64,000 bases of DNA, taken from assembly GCA_024508935.1 (NCBI GenBank), contig JANINW010000006.1, forward strand, positions 456,663 to 520,662. The letters run 5' to 3'. Origin of the DNA: Flavipsychrobacter sp. (GTDB lineage Bacteria; Bacteroidota; Bacteroidia; Chitinophagales; Chitinophagaceae). The position numbers and the translations under genes are program-made. The notes beneath the pieces are model-generated. The model had not been told where the DNA came from, did no database searches, and was given only the letters and a program-made list of their open reading frames with translations. Shown one piece after another: positions 10,991 to 21,216 of this stretch (the first letter of the stretch is position 1; each line of letters opens with the position of its first letter).

Positions 10991-12235
10991 TTAAGCCGCT
11001 TTCAGGTAATCCAGTTTAGAGCCCTCCAGCATTTGTTTGGCATACTCCAGTGTCAGGTGGAATGTTCCCGAGTTCTGCTCTGAAGGCAGGTCGAACATGG
11101 CATCTGTCAGGATCATTTCGCAGATGGCACGCAATCCGCGGCCACCCAGCTTGAACTGAACTGCCTTTTCTACCATGTACTCCAGTGCCGCATTTTCTAC
11201 TTCTAGTTTTATATTCTCGTATTCAAACAGTTTCGTGTACTGTTTTATCAATGCGTTCTTTGGTTCTGTAAGTATACGCTTCAGTGCAGCCGGATCCAGC
11301 GGGTTCAGGTAAGTAACTATTGGCAAACGGCCCAGCAATTCGGGGATCAGGCCAAATGTGCGAAGGTCCTGCGCATTTACATATTGCAGCAAATTAGCAC
11401 GGTCCAGTTCTTTAGTTGCCTTAATAGCATTGTAGCCAATAGATGATGTTTGCACCCTGCGGGCTATCATTTTATCTATACCTTCAAATGCCCCTCCGCA
11501 AATAAAGAGGATATTCTGGGTATTCACCTTTACCATTTTCTGTTCAGGGTGCTTGCGGCCTCCCTGCGGTGGTACCAGTACCTCAGCGCCTTCCAGCAGC
11601 TTCAGCATGGCTTGCTGTACACCTTCGCCACTCACATCGCGCGTTATAGACGGGTTATCGCTTTTACGGCCTATCTTATCTATTTCGTCAATATATACAA
11701 TACCGCGTTCAGCAGCTGCCACGTCAAAATTGCAGGATTGCAGCAGGCGCGACAAAATGCTTTCTACATCTTCGCCTACATAGCCGGCTTCAGTAAATAC
11801 AGTAGCATCTACTATGGCAAAAGGCACCTGCAGCAGTTTGGCAATGGTTTTGGCCAGCAGGGTTTTACCCGTACCGGTCTCCCCTACCATTATGATATTT
11901 GATTTTTCTATCTCTACTTCGTCCTGCTTAGGCTGCATCAGGCGCTTGTAGTGGTTGTACATAGCCACCGACATTACCTTTTTAGCATCATCCTGTCCTA
12001 TCACATACTGGTCAAGGAAAGCTTTAATCTCTCTTGGTTTGTAGATCTTGTGTTGTTTAGGGTCAAATGATTGCCCTTTATTCTTTTGCGCATCTCCCGT
12101 TGCCTCCTGCAGCAGGTGATGGGCATTCTCTATACACTGGTCGCAGATATTGCCCTTCAGGCCGGTGAAGAGGATATTAACTTCATCTTCTGTACGGTCG
12201 CAAAAGGAACATTTTCTTTCAGACTGTTTCGCCAT
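10991..12235 (-). CDS. clpX: ClpX, ATP-dependent unfoldase subunit of ClpXP
   Basis: AAA+ unfoldase that feeds tagged proteins to ClpP. Visible are the N-terminal zinc domain (Cys9, Cys12, Cys31, Cys34), Walker A GETGTGKT (118-125), pore loop GYVGED, Walker [10 protein letters not shown], the GGRKHPEQ loop and the C-terminal sensor-2 domain [10 protein letters not shown]. The 414 residues are a normal length. clpP is not adjacent, unlike in many bacteria. A Bacteroidota -7 box lies 26 bases before the ATG. Confidence 0.97.
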
Positions 12236-12261
12236 TCTCTTGTTAAAATAAATTAGACTGC

Positions 12262-12269
12262 AAAGGTAC
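12262..12269 (-). promoter_or_regulatory. -7 box of the clpX promoter
   Basis: Minus-strand TACCTTTG followed by C, an exact match to TAnnTTTG, 26 bases before the clpX ATG. No convincing -33 TTG is seen at the right spacing. Confidence 0.5.
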
Positions 12270-12330
12270 GAATAAAAATAGAGCTATTGCCGTTGGCAGG
12301 CAGTTTGGCTTTTAGTTAACTTGCAGCCTT

Positions 12331-14817
12331 ATGCCTACGCTGTTCAACAGTAGCCATGCTTCTTCCGCCCGTTTTGCAGATGTTATTTTGCCGCTCAACC
12401 TGCCACAGGTGCTCACCTATGGTGTACCTACCGAATTGCAGGACAGCGTGTTACCGGGCATGCGTGTAGAGGTATCGCTGGGCCGCAATAAATTGTACTC
12501 GGGCATTGTAGAACGTGTACATAACGAAAAACCGGACGCGTACGAGGTGAAACCTATACGCAGTGTGATAGATGAGGTGCCTATTGTAAATGAGACCCAG
12601 CTTACCTTCTGGCGCTGGATAACACAATACTACCTGGCAACACCGGGCGAGGTGATGAATGCTGCCTTGCCGGCCCACCTGAAGATGACCGGGGAAACAA
12701 GATTGCAATGGGCTCCGCAGGATGAAGATGTAGTATATGAGTGGAGTGACATGGCCTACCCTGTAGCCGACGCGCTGGAATTGCGGAAAGAACTGACACT
12801 TACTGAAGTACGCACACTCATTAGCCCGCGGCATCTAACGGCGGTACTAACAGAGCTAATGGAAAATGAAGTGGTGCGGATAACGGATGAGTTGGAGACT
12901 GCCTACCGCCCACGCACTGAGAAGATCGTGACACTGGCAGATGAGTACCATGGTGATGAAGCCATGCATATACTTTTTGATGAACTGCAAAAAGCGCCTC
13001 GGCAGCTTGAATTGCTGATGGCCTATATAGAGCTGTCTATCAAAAACAAGATCGTTCGCCAGCAGGAACTGCTGGAACGCACAGGCGCTACTGCCACACA
13101 GGTAAAAGCGCTTTCTGATAAAGGCATATTTAAGATAGTCGAAAAAAACACAGACCGCCTTGTTTATGAAGGCGTAGAAGAAGCCAGGGATATTGAGTTT
13201 ACCCCGGCGCAGCAGCAATCATACGCCGAACTTGAAAAAGGACTGGACGAAAAAGAGGTATGCCTGCTGCACGGGGTTACCGGCAGCGGTAAAACCCTGC
13301 TTTACATCCATAAGATAAAACAGTGCATTGCCGAGGGTAAACAAGCCATACTGCTGTTGCCCGAAATAGGGCTCACCACCCAATTGGTCAGCCGCCTTTA
13401 TGCCTACTTTGGTGAAGAACTGGGCGTTTACCATTCCCGTTTCAGCAATAACGAGCGGGTTGAAATATGGGAAAAGGTACGTACCGAAAAATATAAGATC
13501 ATTGCAGGGCCACGTTCTGCCTTATGGCTGCCTTATAAAAAGCTGGGGCTGATAATAGCCGACGAAGAGCATGATGCTTCTTACAAGCAAAAAGATCCTG
13601 CCCCGCGCTTTCATGCACGCGATGCAGCTATTTACCTGGCTTCTCTACACAACGCAAAGGTGATATTAGGCTCTGCCACACCTTCTGTAGAAACCCTGTT
13701 CAATGTACAACATAAGAAATATGCTTATGTGCATCTTAAAGAACGTTACCTGGGCATGAATATGCCTTCTATTGAACTGGTAAATGCGCGGTCATTGGAG
13801 GCATTGCGCAAGCAGGGCATCAAACTGCTTACGCCTGAACTGCAGGTAGCTATAACCACTGCTCTACAAAACAAAAAGCAGGTAATACTTTTCCAAAACC
13901 GCAGGGGCTATGCTCCTTTCCAGATATGCAATATGTGCGGATGGGTGCCCCGCTGTAAAAACTGTGCGGTATCACTCACTTACCACAAAAGCAGTGATAA
14001 ACTGCATTGCCATTATTGCGGGCTGAAATCGGCAGTGATACAGGTATGCCCTTCCTGCGGCAGCCATAATTTGCAAAGCAAGACCTTTGGGACAGAAAAA
14101 ATAGAAGAAGAAGTACAGCAGGTATTCCCGCAAGCGCGCGTGGCAAGGATGGACATAGACAGTATGCGGGCTAAGAACAGTATGTCGCAATTGCTGGAAC
14201 ACCTGGAGAAACAGAAAATAGACATATTAGTGGGCACCCAAATGGTTGTGAAAGGGCTCGATTTTGCTAATGTATCGCTGGTGGGTATACTAAATGCCGA
14301 CAGCCTGCTAAGCTACCCGGATTTCCGGGTGAATGAACGCGCCTTCCAGTTGATGGAGCAGGTGAGCGGCAGGGCGGGGCGGGCCGATGGTGCCGGTAAG
14401 GTGCTGATACAGGTGCATAATCTGCAGCATCCTGTATTGCAATGGGTGCAGCACCATGATGTCAGGGCTTTTTATGAAGCGGAAATAAAATACAGGGAGC
14501 AATTTGCTTATCCGCCGTTTTCCAGGCTGATAAAAATAGTGTTCAAACATAAAGATGAGCCTAAAGCCATAGAGGCTGCGGGACGTATGGCGCAAGCTTT
14601 GCAAAGCATTGAAGGCATTGGCATACAAGGACCGGTACCTGCTTTAGTAGCACGGGTACGCAACCTGTACATACAGGAGATATGGCTGAAATGTCCACGT
14701 GATGCACGCCTGCTGGAAACCGTTAAAGCCATGATAAAAGAACAAAGGCAGGCGATACTTGCCCTTAAAGGGAATAATACTTTGCAGATATTGCCGGACG
14801 TAGACCCGGTAAGCTAA
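12331..14817 (+). CDS. priA: Primosomal protein N' (replication restart helicase PriA)
   Basis: DNA helicase that reloads the replisome at stalled forks. The 828 residues show the N-terminal 3'-DNA-binding domain (from about residue 15), Walker A GVTGSGKT (about 317-324), the helicase box ADEEHDASYKQ, then the family-specific zinc module with four Cys pairs (CNMCGW, CKNC, CHYCG, CPSCG, about 530-575), and the C-terminal helicase motifs GTQMVVKGLDF and QVSGRAGR. Divergent from clpX across 95 bases. It ends in a strong terminator shared with the opposing ferritin-like gene. Confidence 0.97.
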   Translation: MPTLFNSSHASSARFADVILPLNLPQVLTYGVPTELQDSVLPGMRVEVSLGRNKLYSGIVERVHNEKPDAYEVKPIRSVIDEVPIVNETQLTFWRWITQYYLATPGEVMNAALPAHLKMTGETRLQWAPQDEDVVYEWSDMAYPVADALELRKELTLTEVRTLISPRHLTAVLTELMENEVVRITDELETAYRPRTEKIVTLADEYHGDEAMHILFDELQKAPRQLELLMAYIELSIKNKIVRQQELLERTGATATQVKALSDKGIFKIVEKNTDRLVYEGVEEARDIEFTPAQQQSYAELEKGLDEKEVCLLHGVTGSGKTLLYIHKIKQCIAEGKQAILLLPEIGLTTQLVSRLYAYFGEELGVYHSRFSNNERVEIWEKVRTEKYKIIAGPRSALWLPYKKLGLIIADEEHDASYKQKDPAPRFHARDAAIYLASLHNAKVILGSATPSVETLFNVQHKKYAYVHLKERYLGMNMPSIELVNARSLEALRKQGIKLLTPELQVAITTALQNKKQVILFQNRRGYAPFQICNMCGWVPRCKNCAVSLTYHKSSDKLHCHYCGLKSAVIQVCPSCGSHNLQSKTFGTEKIEEEVQQVFPQARVARMDIDSMRAKNSMSQLLEHLEKQKIDILVGTQMVVKGLDFANVSLVGILNADSLLSYPDFRVNERAFQLMEQVSGRAGRADGAGKVLIQVHNLQHPVLQWVQHHDVRAFYEAEIKYREQFAYPPFSRLIKIVFKHKDEPKAIEAAGRMAQALQSIEGIGIQGPVPALVARVRNLYIQEIWLKCPRDARLLETVKAMIKEQRQAILALKGNNTLQILPDVDPVS

Positions 14818-14871: not shown

Positions 14872-15705
14872 TTATGGCTTGATAAATTCTGACAAGATCT
14901 TAGTAACCTGGTCCCTGCCAAATGGCTCATCAAATGCTTCCGTTGCTGATTCATTAGATATTTCGAAGCCATTGATATTTATCAGCGGAATGCCTGATTG
15001 CGCATTCATATCTTCGCCTGCATATATTTTTTGAGTAGCATTATTAGTGGTAATGCCGGTATTAACCGCAGTGATCCATGGCATGAGGCCCGGTACATTC
15101 CTTATCATACGTATATGAGCCGCATGCTTGGCTTCTACAGAATGTATATTCAATGCAGCTCTCATAAATGTATCATTGGCCATCAGGTTAGGCACCTGGC
15201 CTTTGTAAGCTCTTACACCCAGGTCTTCGAAAACCTGTGCCTGCTCCAGGAATTTGCTGTAAACAGAAAATGTACCTACATAAGGACCATTACCCGCGCC
15301 ATAACCGCCGCTAAAGTCGTAGGTTGGTTTTGGCGGCATAGGCGCGCCTGCTTCGCTCAGCACACCGCTAAGAAAATCAACGTGCGCTTTTTCATCATAC
15401 AGTATCTTCTGTATTCCCGGAAGATGTTCTGCAGGAATGAAAGACGAAGTAGTATTAGCATCTATCGCAGTAGCATAGAATTCGTGCTCCAGGTATTCTA
15501 ATGAAAGGGCAAATGCCAATGCATCATAAACAGCGTCGGTAGTTTTACCGTATGCTTTTTTTATCATGGCACCCAGCGCCAGGGGCAATGCTATGGCAGT
15601 TATTTTTGAACCAAAGCTCTTTAATATGCCGCGCCTGTGGCTGATACGTTCTCCAAACTCAGGGTCTGCCTGTTGTATATCGTTCAGTATATTATTAATA
15701 TTCAT
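14872..15705 (-). CDS. Ferritin-like domain protein with Tat-like N-terminus (pair 1, second gene)
   Basis: A 277-residue protein of the ferritin-like PF13668 type. The four-helix bundle carries repeated Glu/His signatures typical of a diiron site: ALSLEYLEHEFYA, YDEKAHVDFL and HSVEAKHAAHIR. Near the N-terminus SHRRGILK (about 22-29) precedes a hydrophobic stretch (ITAIALPLALGAMI), resembling a twin-arginine signal with Ile in place of Phe. It has no lipobox. The upstream ferritin-like gene ends 12 bases before its ATG, so the two form an operon. It closely matches the product of 16907-17734. Role unproved; iron or oxidative-stress handling outside the cytoplasm is inferred. Confidence 0.85.
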   Translation of the reverse strand: MNINNILNDIQQADPEFGERISHRRGILKSFGSKITAIALPLALGAMIKKAYGKTTDAVYDALAFALSLEYLEHEFYATAIDANTTSSFIPAEHLPGIQKILYDEKAHVDFLSGVLSEAGAPMPPKPTYDFSGGYGAGNGPYVGTFSVYSKFLEQAQVFEDLGVRAYKGQVPNLMANDTFMRAALNIHSVEAKHAAHIRMIRNVPGLMPWITAVNTGITTNNATQKIYAGEDMNAQSGIPLININGFEISNESATEAFDEPFGRDQVTKILSEFIKP

Positions 15706-15717
15706 TGCAAACGCTTA

Positions 15718-16410
15718 TTAAGTAGTAGGAAGATTGTTTACAGATATTTTTGTTTTGAAGTACATGGATGTTGCAGCCACTACTTCGGCCGGCCCTTTAT
15801 TAGGGTCAGTTCCATTTGCATCTGTACCTTCAGAGAAATTGTTAAACGTAAGCAGGTCGTGTATCAATGAACAGTGCCTGGCTTCTACTGAAGCAATCTT
15901 GCTGGTAGCTACCACAAAAGATGGCGTAGTGAACAGGTGCATACCGCCGTTATAGGCAGCCACACTGATGTCTTCTATTGCCCTGGCCGTATTTAATACA
16001 GAAGTGCGGCTGATGAAATCTACAGAACCGAAATCAAATTCAAGCTCCCGGATAGCACTGGTTCCCAGGAGGTTTTTCAAAAACTCCCTGTGGGTGATTT
16101 CGTGATCGCGTATACTTTGAAAGGCTTTGTATTCGTACTGGGACAGGTTTTGATAAAAATTATCGCAAACTTTCCTGTAGAAGTATGCCTGCATCTGCTC
16201 TAAAGCGTAGAAATAATTCAATACTCCTTTATCATTGCCACCTACATCTACGGTACCATCTGGCGCGGGCGTGTTATCATCATTCTTACTGCAAGATGCT
16301 ATAAGCATACCTGCACCGGCAATGCCGCCTGCATAAGTCAAAAACTTTCTGCGAGATATTCCGGGAACATTTTCTGCAGCACCGGAATGCTCCTGCATGA
16401 TTTCTTTCAT
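15718..16410 (-). CDS. Tat-exported ferritin-like lipoprotein (pair 1, first gene)
   Basis: A 230-residue protein with a clear twin-arginine signal (SRRKFL at 19-24), hydrophobic core and lipobox LIASC, so probably a Tat-dependent lipoprotein. The mature part is a ferritin-like bundle: YALEQMQAYFY, IRDHEITHREFLKNLLG and ASVEARHCSLIHD give the paired Glu/His ligands. The frame is open ten codons further (16440). The start at 16410 is preferred because it places SRR at residues 19-21, exactly as in the paralogue at 17746-18450. First gene of a two-gene operon, divergent from tatA. Confidence 0.85.
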   Translation of the reverse strand: MKEIMQEHSGAAENVPGISRRKFLTYAGGIAGAGMLIASCSKNDDNTPAPDGTVDVGGNDKGVLNYFYALEQMQAYFYRKVCDNFYQNLSQYEYKAFQSIRDHEITHREFLKNLLGTSAIRELEFDFGSVDFISRTSVLNTARAIEDISVAAYNGGMHLFTTPSFVVATSKIASVEARHCSLIHDLLTFNNFSEGTDANGTDPNKGPAEVVAATSMYFKTKISVNNLPTT

Positions 16411-16612
16411 AAAGAATGTTTTAGTATATCTAAATTTCATCTGGCCGCCCTGTGCATGGCATAGTTTGGCATTATGGCTAAGAATAGTAAATCTAATATA
16501 CCAATTCTTCTTTTCATAATGTTTTTCAGTAAAAGTTTTTTTAAGGCCTTTAATCTTTGTACCTTAATGCTTATATTATTGCACGTACAGATAAAGAGCT
16601 AAAAACACATAC

Positions 16613-16825
16613 ATGATTTTATTTATTTTTCAGCCTCATCTTTTACTTTCCATGCCCGGTGCTACAGAATGGATCATTATACTGGTAGTGGTATTACTGT
16701 TATTCGGAGGTAAAAAACTGCCTGAACTGATGCGGGGAATTGGTAAGGGGGTAAACGAATTTAAAAAAGCAAAAGAAGGAGAAGACGATACCGACGAGAA
16801 AAAAGAAGATAAACCGAAAGCATAA
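16613..16825 (+). CDS. tatA: Twin-arginine translocase subunit TatA/E
   Basis: A 70-residue pore-forming component of the Tat export system. One transmembrane helix (about 18-33, [14 protein letters not shown]) is followed by the hinge and amphipathic helix [20 protein letters not shown] and a charged tail. An in-frame ATG at 16652 is an alternative start nearer the family average. A -7-like TAATCTTTG (16551-16559, one base too long) lies upstream. It sits alone, without tatB or tatC, between two operons of predicted Tat substrates on the other strand, a telling context. Confidence 0.93.
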
Positions 16826-16836
16826 AAATATAAACA

Positions 16837-16861
16837 GAAAGCGGGCAAATTGCCCGCTTTC
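16837..16861. terminator. Inverted repeat between tatA and ferritin-like pair 2
   Basis: Stem GAAAGCGGGC/GCCCGCTTTC (16837-16846 with 16852-16861), 5-nt loop, between convergent stops at 16825 and 16907. T-runs are weak on both sides, so termination may be partial. Confidence 0.65.
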
Positions 16862-16906
16862 TCTATCTATCATCATCACCTAACCACTCTTCTGATCTAT
16901 ATATGC

Positions 16907-17734
16907 TTATACTATAAACGGATCAACAATAGCAAGTATATCCATTTTAGTCAGCGGTTCATCAAATGCTTCACTGGCAGCGTTCGACGATATGGACTTG
17001 CCATTGATATTCAAAATATTGATACCTGCCTGCGTGGTAACGTCTTCGCCATTATAGCTGGCCTGCACAGCAGCACCAATACCACCGCTATCACTGCCGG
17101 TTATCCATGGCTTTACCGCTGCTCCCCTGGCCTTGCGCATCTGCCGTATATGCGATGCATGGCGTGCTTCTACAGAATGTATGTTCAGCGCAGCGGTTAG
17201 CACATCATTGCTTGCCATCAGGTTGCCTGCCTGTCCTTTATACGCTCTCACACCTGTATCCTCAAAAGTTTGTGCCACGGCCAAAAAAAGATCGTAATCT
17301 GTAAATGCCGTTTTAAACGGACCATTACCACTGCCGTTGCCGCCTGAAAAATCGAATGTCGGCTTAGCCACCGGTGTACCGCCAGCTGCTGATATGGCTG
17401 TTTTCAAAAAGTTCACATGCGCAGCCTCATCGGCGCCTATCTTAGCTAGTGCATTTACAGCCGGACCGGCAGGTATTAGGCCGGATGCATTGTTACCCAT
17501 CATGTAGAACTCTGCCTCCAGGTATTCCAGCGTTAATGCAAAATTTAAGGTATCTAATACCAAGTCGGTAGACTTGCCGTATGCTTTTTTAAATAACGAT
17601 CCTAAAGCAAATGGCAAGGCCGCCAATGCAACCTTCGACCCAAAACTCTTCAATATATGCCTGCGTTGGCTGGTCCTTTCATAAAACTCCGGATCGGTAT
17701 GTTCTATTTCATTTAATATGCCTTGTAAATTCAT
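16907..17734 (-). CDS. Ferritin-like domain protein with Tat-like N-terminus (pair 2, second gene)
   Basis: A 275-residue paralogue of the product of 14872-15705. It shares the N-terminal plan (SQRRHILKSFGSK, then a hydrophobic stretch VALAALPFALGSLF), the ferritin-like signatures ALTLEYLEAEFYM, ADEAAHVNFLK and HSVEARHASHIRQ, and the C-terminal SNAASEAFDEPL. The RR followed by xILK suggests Tat export without a lipid anchor. The partner gene ends 11 bases before its ATG. The spacing copies pair 1, so the two operons arose by duplication of a whole pair. Metal binding is inferred from the Glu/His pattern only. Confidence 0.85.
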   Translation of the reverse strand: MNLQGILNEIEHTDPEFYERTSQRRHILKSFGSKVALAALPFALGSLFKKAYGKSTDLVLDTLNFALTLEYLEAEFYMMGNNASGLIPAGPAVNALAKIGADEAAHVNFLKTAISAAGGTPVAKPTFDFSGGNGSGNGPFKTAFTDYDLFLAVAQTFEDTGVRAYKGQAGNLMASNDVLTAALNIHSVEARHASHIRQMRKARGAAVKPWITGSDSGGIGAAVQASYNGEDVTTQAGINILNINGKSISSNAASEAFDEPLTKMDILAIVDPFIV

Positions 17735-17745
17735 AAAATCGCTTT

Positions 17746-18450
17746 TTAAGTGGTGGGAAGATTGTTTGCTGATACTTTAGTTTTCAGGTATTTACCTGCA
17801 ATGCTCAGCACAGCTGCAGGGTCCATAGCCATATCCATACCATTTGCGTCAGTAGAATCGGCGAATGTGCCGTTCGTAAGCAGGTCGCGTATGTATGCTG
17901 CATGTCTTGCTTCTACAGAAACGATCTTTCCTGCTATTACCAGGTAATCTGCATTGGCAATCAGCTTGCCTGCACCATTATATGCCTGCACGCCGAGGTC
18001 TTCAAATGCTTTTGCTGTGCCTAATACACTGGCACGGCTGGTGAAGTCAATACTGCTAAAATCAACTTCGAGGTTTTGTATAGCATTGGAACCCAGTGCA
18101 TTTTTAAAGAATTCGCGGTGGGCAATCTCGTGGTCACGTATATCTGTAAGCAGCATTAATTCTCCACTGTCGATGCCTGAATAAGGTTTTGAAATTACCT
18201 CAGTGTAAAAAGCAGCTTCCAGCTGTTCTAACGCATAAGCGTAGTTAAGTATGCCATAATCACCGGAACCAAGGTCTACAGCGCCGGCAGGCATTGGCAG
18301 CACATTTGAATCATCGCGCTTACAGGATGTTACTGAAGATACCAGTAAACCTGCCCCGGCAAAGGCGCCCGCATAGGCCAGGAATCGCCTGCGCGATACG
18401 CCGGCAGACTGTAACGTCGCCAACTCATTTTCTTTCAGTTCTTCTTTCAT
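17746..18450 (-). CDS. Tat-exported ferritin-like lipoprotein (pair 2, first gene)
   Basis: A 234-residue protein with twin-arginine signal SRRRFL (19-24), hydrophobic core and a Cys at VTSC that fits a lipobox. The mature domain repeats the bundle signatures YALEQLEAAFYTEV, IRDHEIAHREFFKNALG and VSVEARHAAYIRDL, aligning throughout with the product of 15718-16410. It is probably a periplasm-facing or surface lipoprotein of the ferritin-like PF13668 family. First gene of pair 2, with 279 bases of unassigned DNA upstream. No consensus promoter was found; TAGTTCG (18536 down to 18530) is a one-mismatch -7 candidate. Confidence 0.85.
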   Translation of the reverse strand: MKEELKENELATLQSAGVSRRRFLAYAGAFAGAGLLVSSVTSCKRDDSNVLPMPAGAVDLGSGDYGILNYAYALEQLEAAFYTEVISKPYSGIDSGELMLLTDIRDHEIAHREFFKNALGSNAIQNLEVDFSSIDFTSRASVLGTAKAFEDLGVQAYNGAGKLIANADYLVIAGKIVSVEARHAAYIRDLLTNGTFADSTDANGMDMAMDPAAVLSIAGKYLKTKVSANNLPTT

Positions 18451-19160: not shown

Positions 19161-20246
19161 TTGAACATAGAAAAACATAAGCGCATAATGGTAGCCCCGC
19201 TGGATTGGGGCATGGGACACACTACCCGCAGTGTGCCCCTGATACAGTATTTACAACAGCTGGGCCATACTGTTGTATTTGCAGGCAATCAATGGCAGCG
19301 CAGTTATATAAATGAAACCTTTAAGGCTATAGACACAATCCATCTGGATGGTTATAATGTACATTACAGTCATTCGGGTTCGCGGTTCATGCTGTCGCTG
19401 TTTTCGCAGTTACCCAAATTGCTGAAGACGATACAAAAAGAACATGACTGGTTACTAAACATTGCTGCCCAACAGCATTTTGATGGTATCATTACCGATA
19501 ACCGCTATGGACTGTATCATCCGCGAATACCATCTGTTATTATGACCCACCAGGTATTGGCCCAGTCGGGGTTGGGTGATATGATAGACCGCCTTACCAG
19601 CAGGGTACATTATAAACAACTCAGAAAATTCAGCCAATGCTGGGTGGTTGATGTACCCGGCAAACCCAACCTGGCCGGTAAGCTGGCACACCCCGCCATA
19701 ATGCCGCCAAACGCTAAATATATAGGCCTTTTATCGCAAATAGAACCGGCCGAAACGAGTGCAGAACATTTGCTCATTCTACTTTCAGGGCCGGAGCCGC
19801 AGCGTACCATGCTATCTGGATTATTATGGCGGCAGGTACAGGATTATAAAGGCAGGCTGGTTTTTATTGAAGGGAGTAATGAAACACCCACACCCGATAA
19901 TATACCGGACAATATCAGCTATTATAAACGTGTGACCAAAGAAGTGCTGCAGCCACTGCTGGAGGCAGCCAGTATGGTGATATGCCGCAGCGGCTATTCT
20001 ACACTGATGGATCTGGCTGTGCTGGATAAACCGGCTATCCTGGTGCCTACACCGGGCCAAACCGAGCAGGAATACCTGGGAGCACATTTACATAAAGAAG
20101 GCGTTTTCTATCATGCTCCTCAAAAAACATTCCATCTCAGTAAGGTTTTAACGGCAACAGCACAATTCCCTTTTCACAAATTGCAACTCGAAAATGCACA
20201 CCAGCAATATAAGTTGGTGATCGATGACTGGATCAAAACTCTTTGA
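19161..20246 (+). CDS. MurG-like glycosyltransferase (GT28-type C-terminal domain)
   Basis: A 361-residue GT-B protein. The N-terminal half has the nucleotide-sugar transferase opening MVAPLDWGMGHTTRS (residues 10-24). The C-terminal half has the donor-site signature YSTLMDLAVLDKPAILVPTP and GQTEQEYLGAHL (about 280-315), as in MurG and related GT28 enzymes. The start is TTG at 19161; an ATG nine codons later would delete the first beta-strand of the fold. Substrate not recognisable. There is no cell-wall gene next to it, so it is not MurG itself, which would sit in the dcw cluster. It is followed by an EamA transporter with its own -7 box. Confidence 0.8.
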   Translation: MNIEKHKRIMVAPLDWGMGHTTRSVPLIQYLQQLGHTVVFAGNQWQRSYINETFKAIDTIHLDGYNVHYSHSGSRFMLSLFSQLPKLLKTIQKEHDWLLNIAAQQHFDGIITDNRYGLYHPRIPSVIMTHQVLAQSGLGDMIDRLTSRVHYKQLRKFSQCWVVDVPGKPNLAGKLAHPAIMPPNAKYIGLLSQIEPAETSAEHLLILLSGPEPQRTMLSGLLWRQVQDYKGRLVFIEGSNETPTPDNIPDNISYYKRVTKEVLQPLLEAASMVICRSGYSTLMDLAVLDKPAILVPTPGQTEQEYLGAHLHKEGVFYHAPQKTFHLSKVLTATAQFPFHKLQLENAHQQYKLVIDDWIKTL

Positions 20247-20293
20247 CAAATCAACTGCCAGCTAAATCGCTTAAAGTTTCTACAAAGCGATTG

Positions 20294-20301
20294 TATTTTT
20301 G
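20294..20301 (+). promoter_or_regulatory. -7 box of the eamA-family gene
   Basis: TATTTTTG followed by C, an exact TAnnTTTG match, ending 6 bases before the GTG at 20308. It overlaps the upstream in-frame TTG (20299), ruling that start out if the promoter is real, and predicts a leaderless mRNA. Confidence 0.55.
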
Positions 20302-20307
20302 CGGGCA

Positions 20308-21216
20308 GTGAATAAGAAAACAAAAGCGCACCTGGCTTTACTGGGTGCCAATATATTTTACGGTGCGGGTTTCACGGTGGCCAAACATGTGATGCCACGT
20401 CTTATACAGCCCCTCGGTTTCATTTTTATCAGGGTGAGTGTGGTAATGTTGCTTTTCTGGCTGAGTTTTTTCGGCGGGGAGAAATACCGTACAACGATAC
20501 AGAAGAAGGATTGGCCGATACTGGTATTGGGTGGACTGTTCGGCGTGGCAATGAACCAGATGCTTTTTTTCCTGGGCCTGAACCTTACCTTCCCTATACA
20601 TGCGTCGCTTATTATGATGAGCACACCTTTACTTATTACCATCATTTCTTTGTTTGTGCTGCGTGAAAGGATAAGCGTACAAAAAAGCATTGGCCTTTTA
20701 CTGGGTATAGGTGGTGCCATACTACTTATGAGCGCAGGTAAAGAACTTACGCTCACCGGCAGTTCTGCCCTGGGTGACCTGTTCGTATTTCTAAATGCTG
20801 CCTCTTATGCTATATACCTGGTTATCATTAAACCGTTAATGACACGCTACCGGCCTATTATTGTGATACGCTGGGTATTTTTCTTTGGCTTCCTGTTTGT
20901 ATTGCCGTTTGGCTGGCCACAATTTGCTGCCATACAGTGGTCGCAGTTTGCATTTACAGATTACCTTTCGGTGGCATTCATTGTTGTCTGCGTTACCTTT
21001 TTTACCTACCTGTGGAATGTATTTGCACTACGGCATTTACCGCCGTCTACTGCGGGTGCCTACATTTACTTCCAGCCCATATTTGCAGCAGTTATTTCTA
21101 TACTGGTAATAGGAGAAACCCTAACTGCTATAAAGCTGTTAGCCACCCTGCTGATATTTAGCGGTGTATATCTTGTAAACTTTGGCTTTAAGAAAAAACC
21201 ATTGGCCGGCAATTAA
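20308..21216 (+). CDS. EamA/DMT-family transporter
   Basis: A 302-residue inner-membrane protein with about ten hydrophobic helices in two EamA repeats (about 8-140 and 155-295), the drug/metabolite transporter (RhaT/YdcZ-like) architecture. Repeat signatures include GANIFYGAGFTVAKHV near the start and LPPSTAGAYIYFQPIFAA in repeat two. Substrate cannot be told from sequence. The start is GTG at 20308, chosen because a -7 box covers the upstream TTG. It ends in a 34-base perfect inverted repeat shared with gpmI. Confidence 0.88.
   Translation: MNKKTKAHLALLGANIFYGAGFTVAKHVMPRLIQPLGFIFIRVSVVMLLFWLSFFGGEKYRTTIQKKDWPILVLGGLFGVAMNQMLFFLGLNLTFPIHASLIMMSTPLLITIISLFVLRERISVQKSIGLLLGIGGAILLMSAGKELTLTGSSALGDLFVFLNAASYAIYLVIIKPLMTRYRPIIVIRWVFFFGFLFVLPFGWPQFAAIQWSQFAFTDYLSVAFIVVCVTFFTYLWNVFALRHLPPSTAGAYIYFQPIFAAVISILVIGETLTAIKLLATLLIFSGVYLVNFGFKKKPLAGN

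Follow-up and report, generated by a model that had tools for sequence, protein, structure and literature searches.

Two ferritin-like gene pairs and a tatA gene

The stretch analysed here, hereafter the window, comprises 64,000 nucleotides of contig JANINW010000006.1 of Flavipsychrobacter sp. (assembly GCA_024508935.1, positions 456,663 to 520,662 of the forward strand). Between positions 14,872 and 18,450 it carries two pairs of genes for ferritin-like proteins, with a tatA gene of the twin-arginine translocation (Tat) system between them. Each pair is composed of a first gene, A, and a second gene, B, and the features of the locus are as follows.

14872-15705, minus strand: B1, Ferritin_2 protein of 277 amino acids (aa) outside the canonical clade; residues 24-25 are the twin arginine, and no lipobox was seen
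15718-16410, minus strand: A1, Ferritin_2 protein; Tat motif SRRKFL, lipobox IASC, then SKNDD
16613-16825, plus strand: tatA, 70 aa; divergent from A1 and convergent with B2
16907-17734, minus strand: B2, Ferritin_2 protein of 275 aa in the canonical clade; a twin arginine is present, and no lipobox was seen
17746-18450, minus strand: A2, Ferritin_2 protein; Tat motif SRRRFL, lipobox VTSC, then KRDD; canonical clade

Both pairs have the coordinates, gene order, strand and close spacing (12 bases between A1 and B1, 11 between A2 and B2) given in the original prediction, which was made from the sequence without database searches, and tatA lies on the opposite strand between them. An in-frame ATG at 16440 is an alternative start for A1 and would give a longer protein. 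The ferritin-like identity of the four genes is borne out by PF13668 (Ferritin_2), whose curated cut-off of 24.7 bits is passed by all four products with 102.9-140.4 bits; they are the only four matches in the genome. The members of the pairs also align one to one, with an identity of 54% between B1 and B2 and 51% between A1 and A2, against 29% between A1 and B1 over 136 columns. The tatA product matches PF02416 (68.6 bits, E 2.6e-19, cut-off 21) and TIGR01411 tatAE (73.2 bits, cut-off 53.9), and is one of two PF02416 matches in the genome. Because the only tatC of the genome lies at C6:355893, about 117 kb from the pairs, no self-contained translocon is encoded at the window locus.

Matches to PF13668 were found in 24 of 59 relatives, 41 of 296 genomes of a phylum sample and 99 of 294 genomes of a family sample, the window genome being counted in each. 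A and B are adjacent and on the same strand in all 80 named loci, the top 80 among the 335 that an A profile retrieved; A-B is a fixed two-gene unit, widespread in Bacteroidota. A tandem A-B-A-B arrangement occurs in a Pedobacter (L087, 1856-5230), so that doubled pairs are found beyond the window genome. In two loci a gene appears to be split between two frames, namely B in L041 (7722-8562) and A in L022 (5866-6777).

Metal site and export signals

In both A and B the ligand set consists of a Glu in helix 1, ExxH in helix 2, a Glu in helix 3 and ExxH in helix 4, the classic di-iron set of ferritin-like proteins, and it is kept in full in A1, A2, B1 and B2. In the ligand and twin-arginine counts gaps were set aside, some genomes are present twice, and the pairs that the window's genus carries beside priA (genus slot pairs, treated below) were counted apart. 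Outside the latter, the six ligands E, E, H, E, E and H are found in 99/100, 102/104, 103/104, 103/104, 106/106 and 106/106 of the A proteins and in 106/107, 104/106, 105/106, 104/106, 105/105 and 105/105 of the B proteins. All 56 A and 55 B sequences of the alignments exceed the PF13668 cut-off. The AlphaFold2 models are confident over the domain (mean predicted local distance difference test, pLDDT, of 84.6 for A2 and 84.7 for B2), and their top PDB match is RvFeMP-1 (8kce, 8w9k, 8wai), with E 1.2e-5 and TMq 0.59 for A2 and E 3.5e-4 and TMq 0.53 for B2. The same protein comes first by sequence profile (5.5e-5 for A and 1.3e-7 for B). Its M1 ligands (helix 1 Glu, helix 2 Glu and His, helix 4 acidic residue) are present in A1, A2, B1 and B2, a sequence-level correspondence taken from HMMER alignments and the paper of Kato et al. 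The absence of any metal site, which would have told against the original prediction, is thus contradicted by the ligands of all four proteins and by models that match a di-metal protein first.

RvFeMP-1 of tardigrades and DRB0118 of Deinococcus radiodurans are reported as metabolite phosphatases (Kato et al. 2024, PMC11616004); inactivation of DRB0118 lowers desiccation survival, as cited in that paper, which also states that PF13668 previously had no solved structure and little biological information. A and B share with these proteins the family and, with RvFeMP-1, a di-metal site made of a Glu, the helix 2 Glu and His, the helix 3 Glu and an acidic ligand in helix 4, but differ from both in forming a two-gene unit, in carrying twin arginines on both members and a lipobox on A, and in having no IgG-like domain. 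The predicted activity is most likely either metal-dependent hydrolysis, suggested by the likeness to RvFeMP-1, or the handling of oxidants or metals at the envelope; the ligand set would point to di-iron chemistry. Storage or detoxification of iron or peroxide at the envelope, in the manner of ferritin, Dps or rubrerythrin and in place of a phosphatase function, is a serious contender, though we hold it at less than an even chance. The E, ExxH, E, ExxH set favours it, as do weak matches to the Rubrerythrin profile, seen for 8 of 55 B and 1 of 56 A, while the best match of A and B by both sequence and fold is a Zn/Mg protein with phosphatase activity, with Dps, ferritin and bacterioferritin ranking lower for A2 and B2.

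The A proteins begin with an S-R-R-x-F-L Tat motif, followed by a hydrophobic stretch and a lipobox; the SRR(K/R)FL signal and lipobox read earlier from the first member of each pair are indeed present in A1 and A2. Among 108 distinct full-length A proteins (12 short fragments were dropped), 105 show a Tat-like motif by a pattern of our own, followed in 94 by a lipobox. The twin arginine also occurs in B, which the original prediction did not mention, and is nearly invariant across that family: the first Arg is kept in 107/107 B and 96/96 A, and the second in 105/107 B and 87/96 A (6 Lys). In both proteins a hydrophobic stretch follows, as in Tat substrates. No lipobox was seen in B, and a loose pattern finds an AxA-like site in 105 of 108. 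The Tat-signal profile TIGR01409 (cut-off 16.7) gives 18.8 bits for A1, 15.4 bits for A2 and no match for B1 or B2, and at E 0.01 it finds 14 of 56 A against 0 of 55 B.

Behind the lipobox, the pattern C-x-[KR]-[DE] or C-[KR]-[DE]2 is found in 70 of 94 A, compared with 49 of 2105 control windows inside proteins, and A2 (C-K-R-D-D) fits it. The optimal lipoprotein export signal (LES) of Capnocytophaga canimorsus is C-X-K-(D/E)2-X (PMC5080379). A2 and many relatives come near it, having a Cys and then Lys and acids as in the surface lipoproteins of Bacteroidota described there; unlike those, A has a Tat-type signal in front, A1 is no exact fit, and surface exposure of A is a prediction. The n-region of B, before the twin arginine, is also conserved, with 2.6 bits per column in 55 sequences as against 1.1 bits in 56 sequences for A; for comparison, the domains reach 3.1 and 3.35 bits per column. 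The conserved residues are Met1, Asn2, Asp14-Pro-Glu and Arg20 (DPE..ER..RR; residues 1-23, which in B2 are window positions 17734-17666), and this n-region may be a recognition element.

Linkage with tat genes

Had tatA been adjacent to the pair in the window only, the original prediction would have lost its footing, but the linkage recurs. A tatA is found in the fetched stretch of 10 of the 80 named loci (L039, L040, L049, L055, L059, L060, L065, L075, L110 and L113; some stretches are shortened by contig ends) and beside the pair in 13 of 68 family genomes (G366, G382, G393, G422, G425, G453, G493, G507, G512, G550, G558, G564 and G597). These 68 are the genomes with listed pair coordinates among 80, the other 12 standing outside the count; G370, G519, G546, G566 and G580 were left out of an initial 85. 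The two sets overlap, since L040, L059 and L075, the last from Taibaiella lutea, have tat coordinates identical to those of G550, G453 and G493, respectively. In the window's genus 8 of 14 relatives have the linkage (G002, G003, G004, G005, G006, G008, G010 and G012), in G011 it is probable across a contig end (L016 and L122), and G001, G007, G009, G013 and G014 are without it. The wider phylum sample has one case in 30 genomes (G341, 2.7 kb away), these 30 remaining from 41 after removal of the window genome, of G018 and G028, which are covered elsewhere, and of eight genomes with one weak match; family and order relatives outside the genus have none in nine (the G017 pair is near a contig end). 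By our own arithmetic, which ignores relatedness, chance would place a tatA there in about 0.6% of genomes, given two tatA genes, 4.5 Mb and a 14-kb stretch.

The position of the linked tatA varies. It lies downstream on the same strand in L007, L039, L040, L049, L065, L113, L164-L167 and L173; downstream and convergent in L059, L060, L075, L162, L163, L170-L172 and window pair 2; and upstream in seven genus slots and window pair 1, where it is divergent, and in L110, where it is on the same strand. Its placement in L055 and L118 differs from these three layouts. The pair-tatA-pair order, which the original prediction had suggested looking for in related genomes, was seen only in the window genome among the loci examined. 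A TatA motif pattern was drawn too narrow, matching 13 of 30 linked TatA, and is not used as evidence.

Some pairs are linked to tatC as well. Four of the 80 named loci have both tatA and tatC (L039, L040, L049 and L055), tatC being divergent from A in L055 and on the same strand in the other three, and a tatC beside tatA and cargo, as in a cargo-dedicated tat operon, is found in G003, L039, L040, L049, L166 and L167. Two tatC genes are present in 1 of 29 genomes (G003, with one copy inside A-B-tatA-tatC), in full length in 5 of 80 family genomes, where the second follows A-B-tatA in three (G550, G558 and G597), in full length in 4 of 10 named genomes chosen for linkage, and in none of the 30 phylum genomes. 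In G512 the A-B-tatA contig ends at the expected tatC site and a different contig has one tatC at its end, and G569 (L169) has a tatA-tatC set on a small contig without the pair. A set of the same kind, with a partial tatC, was seen in G432:C28. A survey of TatC reports multiple tatC loci in 39 species, about 5%, and lists Sphingobacteria, as we read its table, with tatC and tatA at separate places (PMC3827258).

In a tatC tree of 40 rows, whose bootstrap had not settled, the linked copies are scattered. That of G612 groups with its own housekeeping copy (95/95), and that of G613 falls in a starred group containing its own; the linked and housekeeping copies of G611 and the two of G512 form one starred group, as do the linked and own copies of G614 with those of G564 and G616. 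The linked copies of G558 and G597 come together, next to the stray G569 (L169) copy, and G003 is unresolved. A single clade of linked tatC is rejected by the approximately unbiased (AU) test (p 3.1e-44; 7 linked rows against 32), which was made after the first tree had been seen and omitted L118, whose genome has no tatC other than the linked one. As the linked copies are scattered and the one-clade constraint is rejected, we count at least five separate recruitments of tatC to the A-B cargo, barring gene conversion, namely G611, G612, G613, G614 and the G558/G597 group; G003 may share its origin with the last. The stretch W-x-F-x-x-P-A-L-x-x-x-E, which we take to be near the signal-binding region of TatC, is kept in 8 of 8 linked tatC; all 32 others have a similar one.

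The same tree could arise from one ancestral A-B-tatA-tatC cluster in which gene conversion with the housekeeping copy mimics local duplication, and conversion would likewise account for the tendency of linked tatC to cluster with the housekeeping tatC of the same or a close genome. However, linked and housekeeping copies of one genome are only 57-75% identical and the linked ones mostly have longer end branches, so that conversion would need to be old, repeated and then stopped; the orientation of tatC also differs between L055 and the three same-strand loci. We consider this history improbable.

History of the pairs and proposed function

The slot in which the pairs lie is conserved, and its flanks, whose relatives were found by BLAST, consist of genes with presumed names.

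10991-14817: presumed clpX and priA, one flank of the slot
19161-21216, plus strand: presumed glycosyltransferase-like (GT) and EamA-like genes, the other flank

In the window's genus, 13 of 14 slot pairs adjoin priA and 7 of 14 have a divergent tatA. L059 and L162 (genus code g196, same family) have a clpX-priA-tatA slot with a convergent canonical pair. The window holds both layouts, with pair 1 in the genus position and pair 2 in the L059 position. In a concatenated tree of 42 rows, a starred branch (99/98) separates pair 1, L020, L021 and the 12 genus slot pairs included in the tree from pair 2 and the other 26 rows. The placing of pair 1 as sister of the genus slot pairs is weak (59/84), and pair 2 joins the A-B-tatA-tatC pair of G003 and L059/L162 (80/89, not starred). 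Pair 2 is 71% identical to the L038 pair and 53% to pair 1. Since the window pairs fall in different clades, a recent tandem duplication is rejected, and the description of them as duplicated holds only in an old sense.

The genus slot pairs (L005, L006 and L008-L019) have largely lost their ligands. All 14 of their A proteins are without the Glu of helix 1 and that of helix 4 (12 have Asp in helix 4), and among their 14 B proteins the helix 1 Glu is present in three, the helix 2 Glu in one and the helix 4 Glu in one. The two arginines, in contrast, are retained in all 14 A and all 14 B. They are possibly exported pseudo-enzymes. The window genome differs in that both of its pairs retain the ligand set.

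We propose that the window locus encodes an A-B unit that is loaded with metal, exported by Tat and served by a TatA recruited to it, and give this reading a probability of roughly 55%. Each A-B operon would yield two four-helix di-metal proteins that fold and load metal in the cytoplasm and then leave folded via Tat; folding and metal uptake in the cytoplasm are a usual reason for the use of this pathway. A would be a lipoprotein, possibly displayed on the cell surface, as its Lys/Asp-rich start after the Cys resembles the Bacteroidota export signal, and B would probably be cleaved and act as its partner. The product of the neighbouring tatA would be an additional TatA which, together with the genome's one general TatC, increases or adjusts the export of the cargo. 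In some related genomes a duplicated tatC stands beside the same cargo, and the extra TatA-TatC would raise export when the cargo is made.

A simpler account is that the pair is ordinary cargo of the general Tat system, next to tatA by chance or by inherited order and with no special role for it. Most pairs have no linked tatA, the window's tatC is distant, and the clpX-priA-pair slot is common to the genus, L059 and L162, all of which favour this account. Against it, the linkages in 10/80, 13/68 and 8/14, in several strand arrangements, exceed the chance expectation, and a single inherited cluster fails to explain linked tatC genes that are not one clade; we regard it as unlikely. The small dedicated extracytoplasmic module of the original prediction survives in part: linkage to tatA recurs, in some genomes with an extra tatC, but the window's own tatC lies far off and most genomes have the pair with no tatA beside it.

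Several observations weigh against the proposed TatA-served unit. Of the 80 named loci, 70 have no tatA next to the pair (a few of these have short flanks), and neither do 55/68, 29/30 and 9/9 genomes of the family, phylum and outside-genus samples, so that in general the pair does not require a linked TatA; the window genome lacks a tatC beside tatA and cargo. A tatA tree of 42 rows and 76 columns, too short to settle the matter, establishes neither a single family nor a new function for the linked genes. B is not recognised by Tat-signal profiles; a stricter export-signal pattern with two acids fits only 53 of 94 A, and A1 (C-S-K-N-D-D) is outside even the relaxed one. In A1 a Gln replaces the second helix 1 Glu, a position that is Glu in 99 of 101 A rows, and, because their ligands are lost, the genus slot pairs are not kept by catalysis. 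Phosphatase activity of RvFeMP-1 and DRB0118 is reported as low, and RvFeMP-1 is not secreted in human cells (PMC11616004). Finally, the window has no tblastn hit to the sigma and anti-sigma proteins, used as queries, that accompany some related pairs (see below).

A more elaborate reading goes further and is correspondingly tentative. A and B would form a co-exported heteromeric metalloenzyme so demanding to export that, in Bacteroidota, tatC, with tatA, would have been duplicated at least five separate times and kept adjacent, giving cargo-specific translocons with the unusually conserved B n-region as recognition handle; the window would represent a stage at which TatA is private to the pair and TatC still general.

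Known systems offer partial parallels. In Bacillus subtilis, TatAd-TatCd and TatAy-TatCy export PhoD and YwbN specifically, and phoD lies in a tat operon with tatCd (PMC3827258). Some pair-bearing genomes share with it a cargo gene by tat genes and more than one tatC; they differ in cargo, phylum and the repeated recruitment of tatC, and the window links only tatA, its tatC being general. Cytophaga hutchinsonii, also of the Bacteroidota, has two tatC by internal duplication, for which the text of PMC3827258 available to us describes no link to a cargo and contains no occurrence of 'ferritin'. A second TatA in the genome is also known from TatA1/TatA2 of Campylobacter jejuni (PMC4148689) and from TatE, but that of the window adjoins one cargo family, and its part in export is a prediction. 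We found no published description of a linkage between the pair and tat genes, in a literature search that was thin on subscription journals. On the proposed reading, repeated evolution would connect the Tat machinery with a widespread pair of proteins whose function is barely known and, if true, this would be a testable case of Tat specialisation to one cargo outside Bacilli. It would also offer a bacterial setting in which to learn what Ferritin_2 proteins do; elsewhere the family has been discussed in connection with the tolerance of tardigrades, plants and Deinococcus to desiccation and stress (PMC11616004).

Regarding other neighbours, 26 of the 80 named loci have an extracytoplasmic function (ECF) sigma factor and an RskA-type anti-sigma factor near the pair, in varied orders and orientations, which suggests stress-induced expression in these related loci. 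The sets were found by BLAST clustering, and three were checked by Pfam. The loci include L043, where a Fasciclin protein lies in between, L045-L049, L057, L058 and L061; L049 reads A-B-tatA-tatC-sigma-anti-sigma. A promoter scan of the window region was uninformative (10 sites against 11.9 expected), and a consensus scan for terminators gave 11 sites against 4.2 expected, including the following.

16836-16862: terminator-like hairpin with a 12-pair stem, between the convergent tatA and pair 2, from the consensus scan only

A related small protein of about 135 aa that looks secreted, with no Pfam match in the one member scanned, follows B in 10 of 80 loci (L045, L047, L048, L057, L058, L061, L069, L072, L073 and L078).

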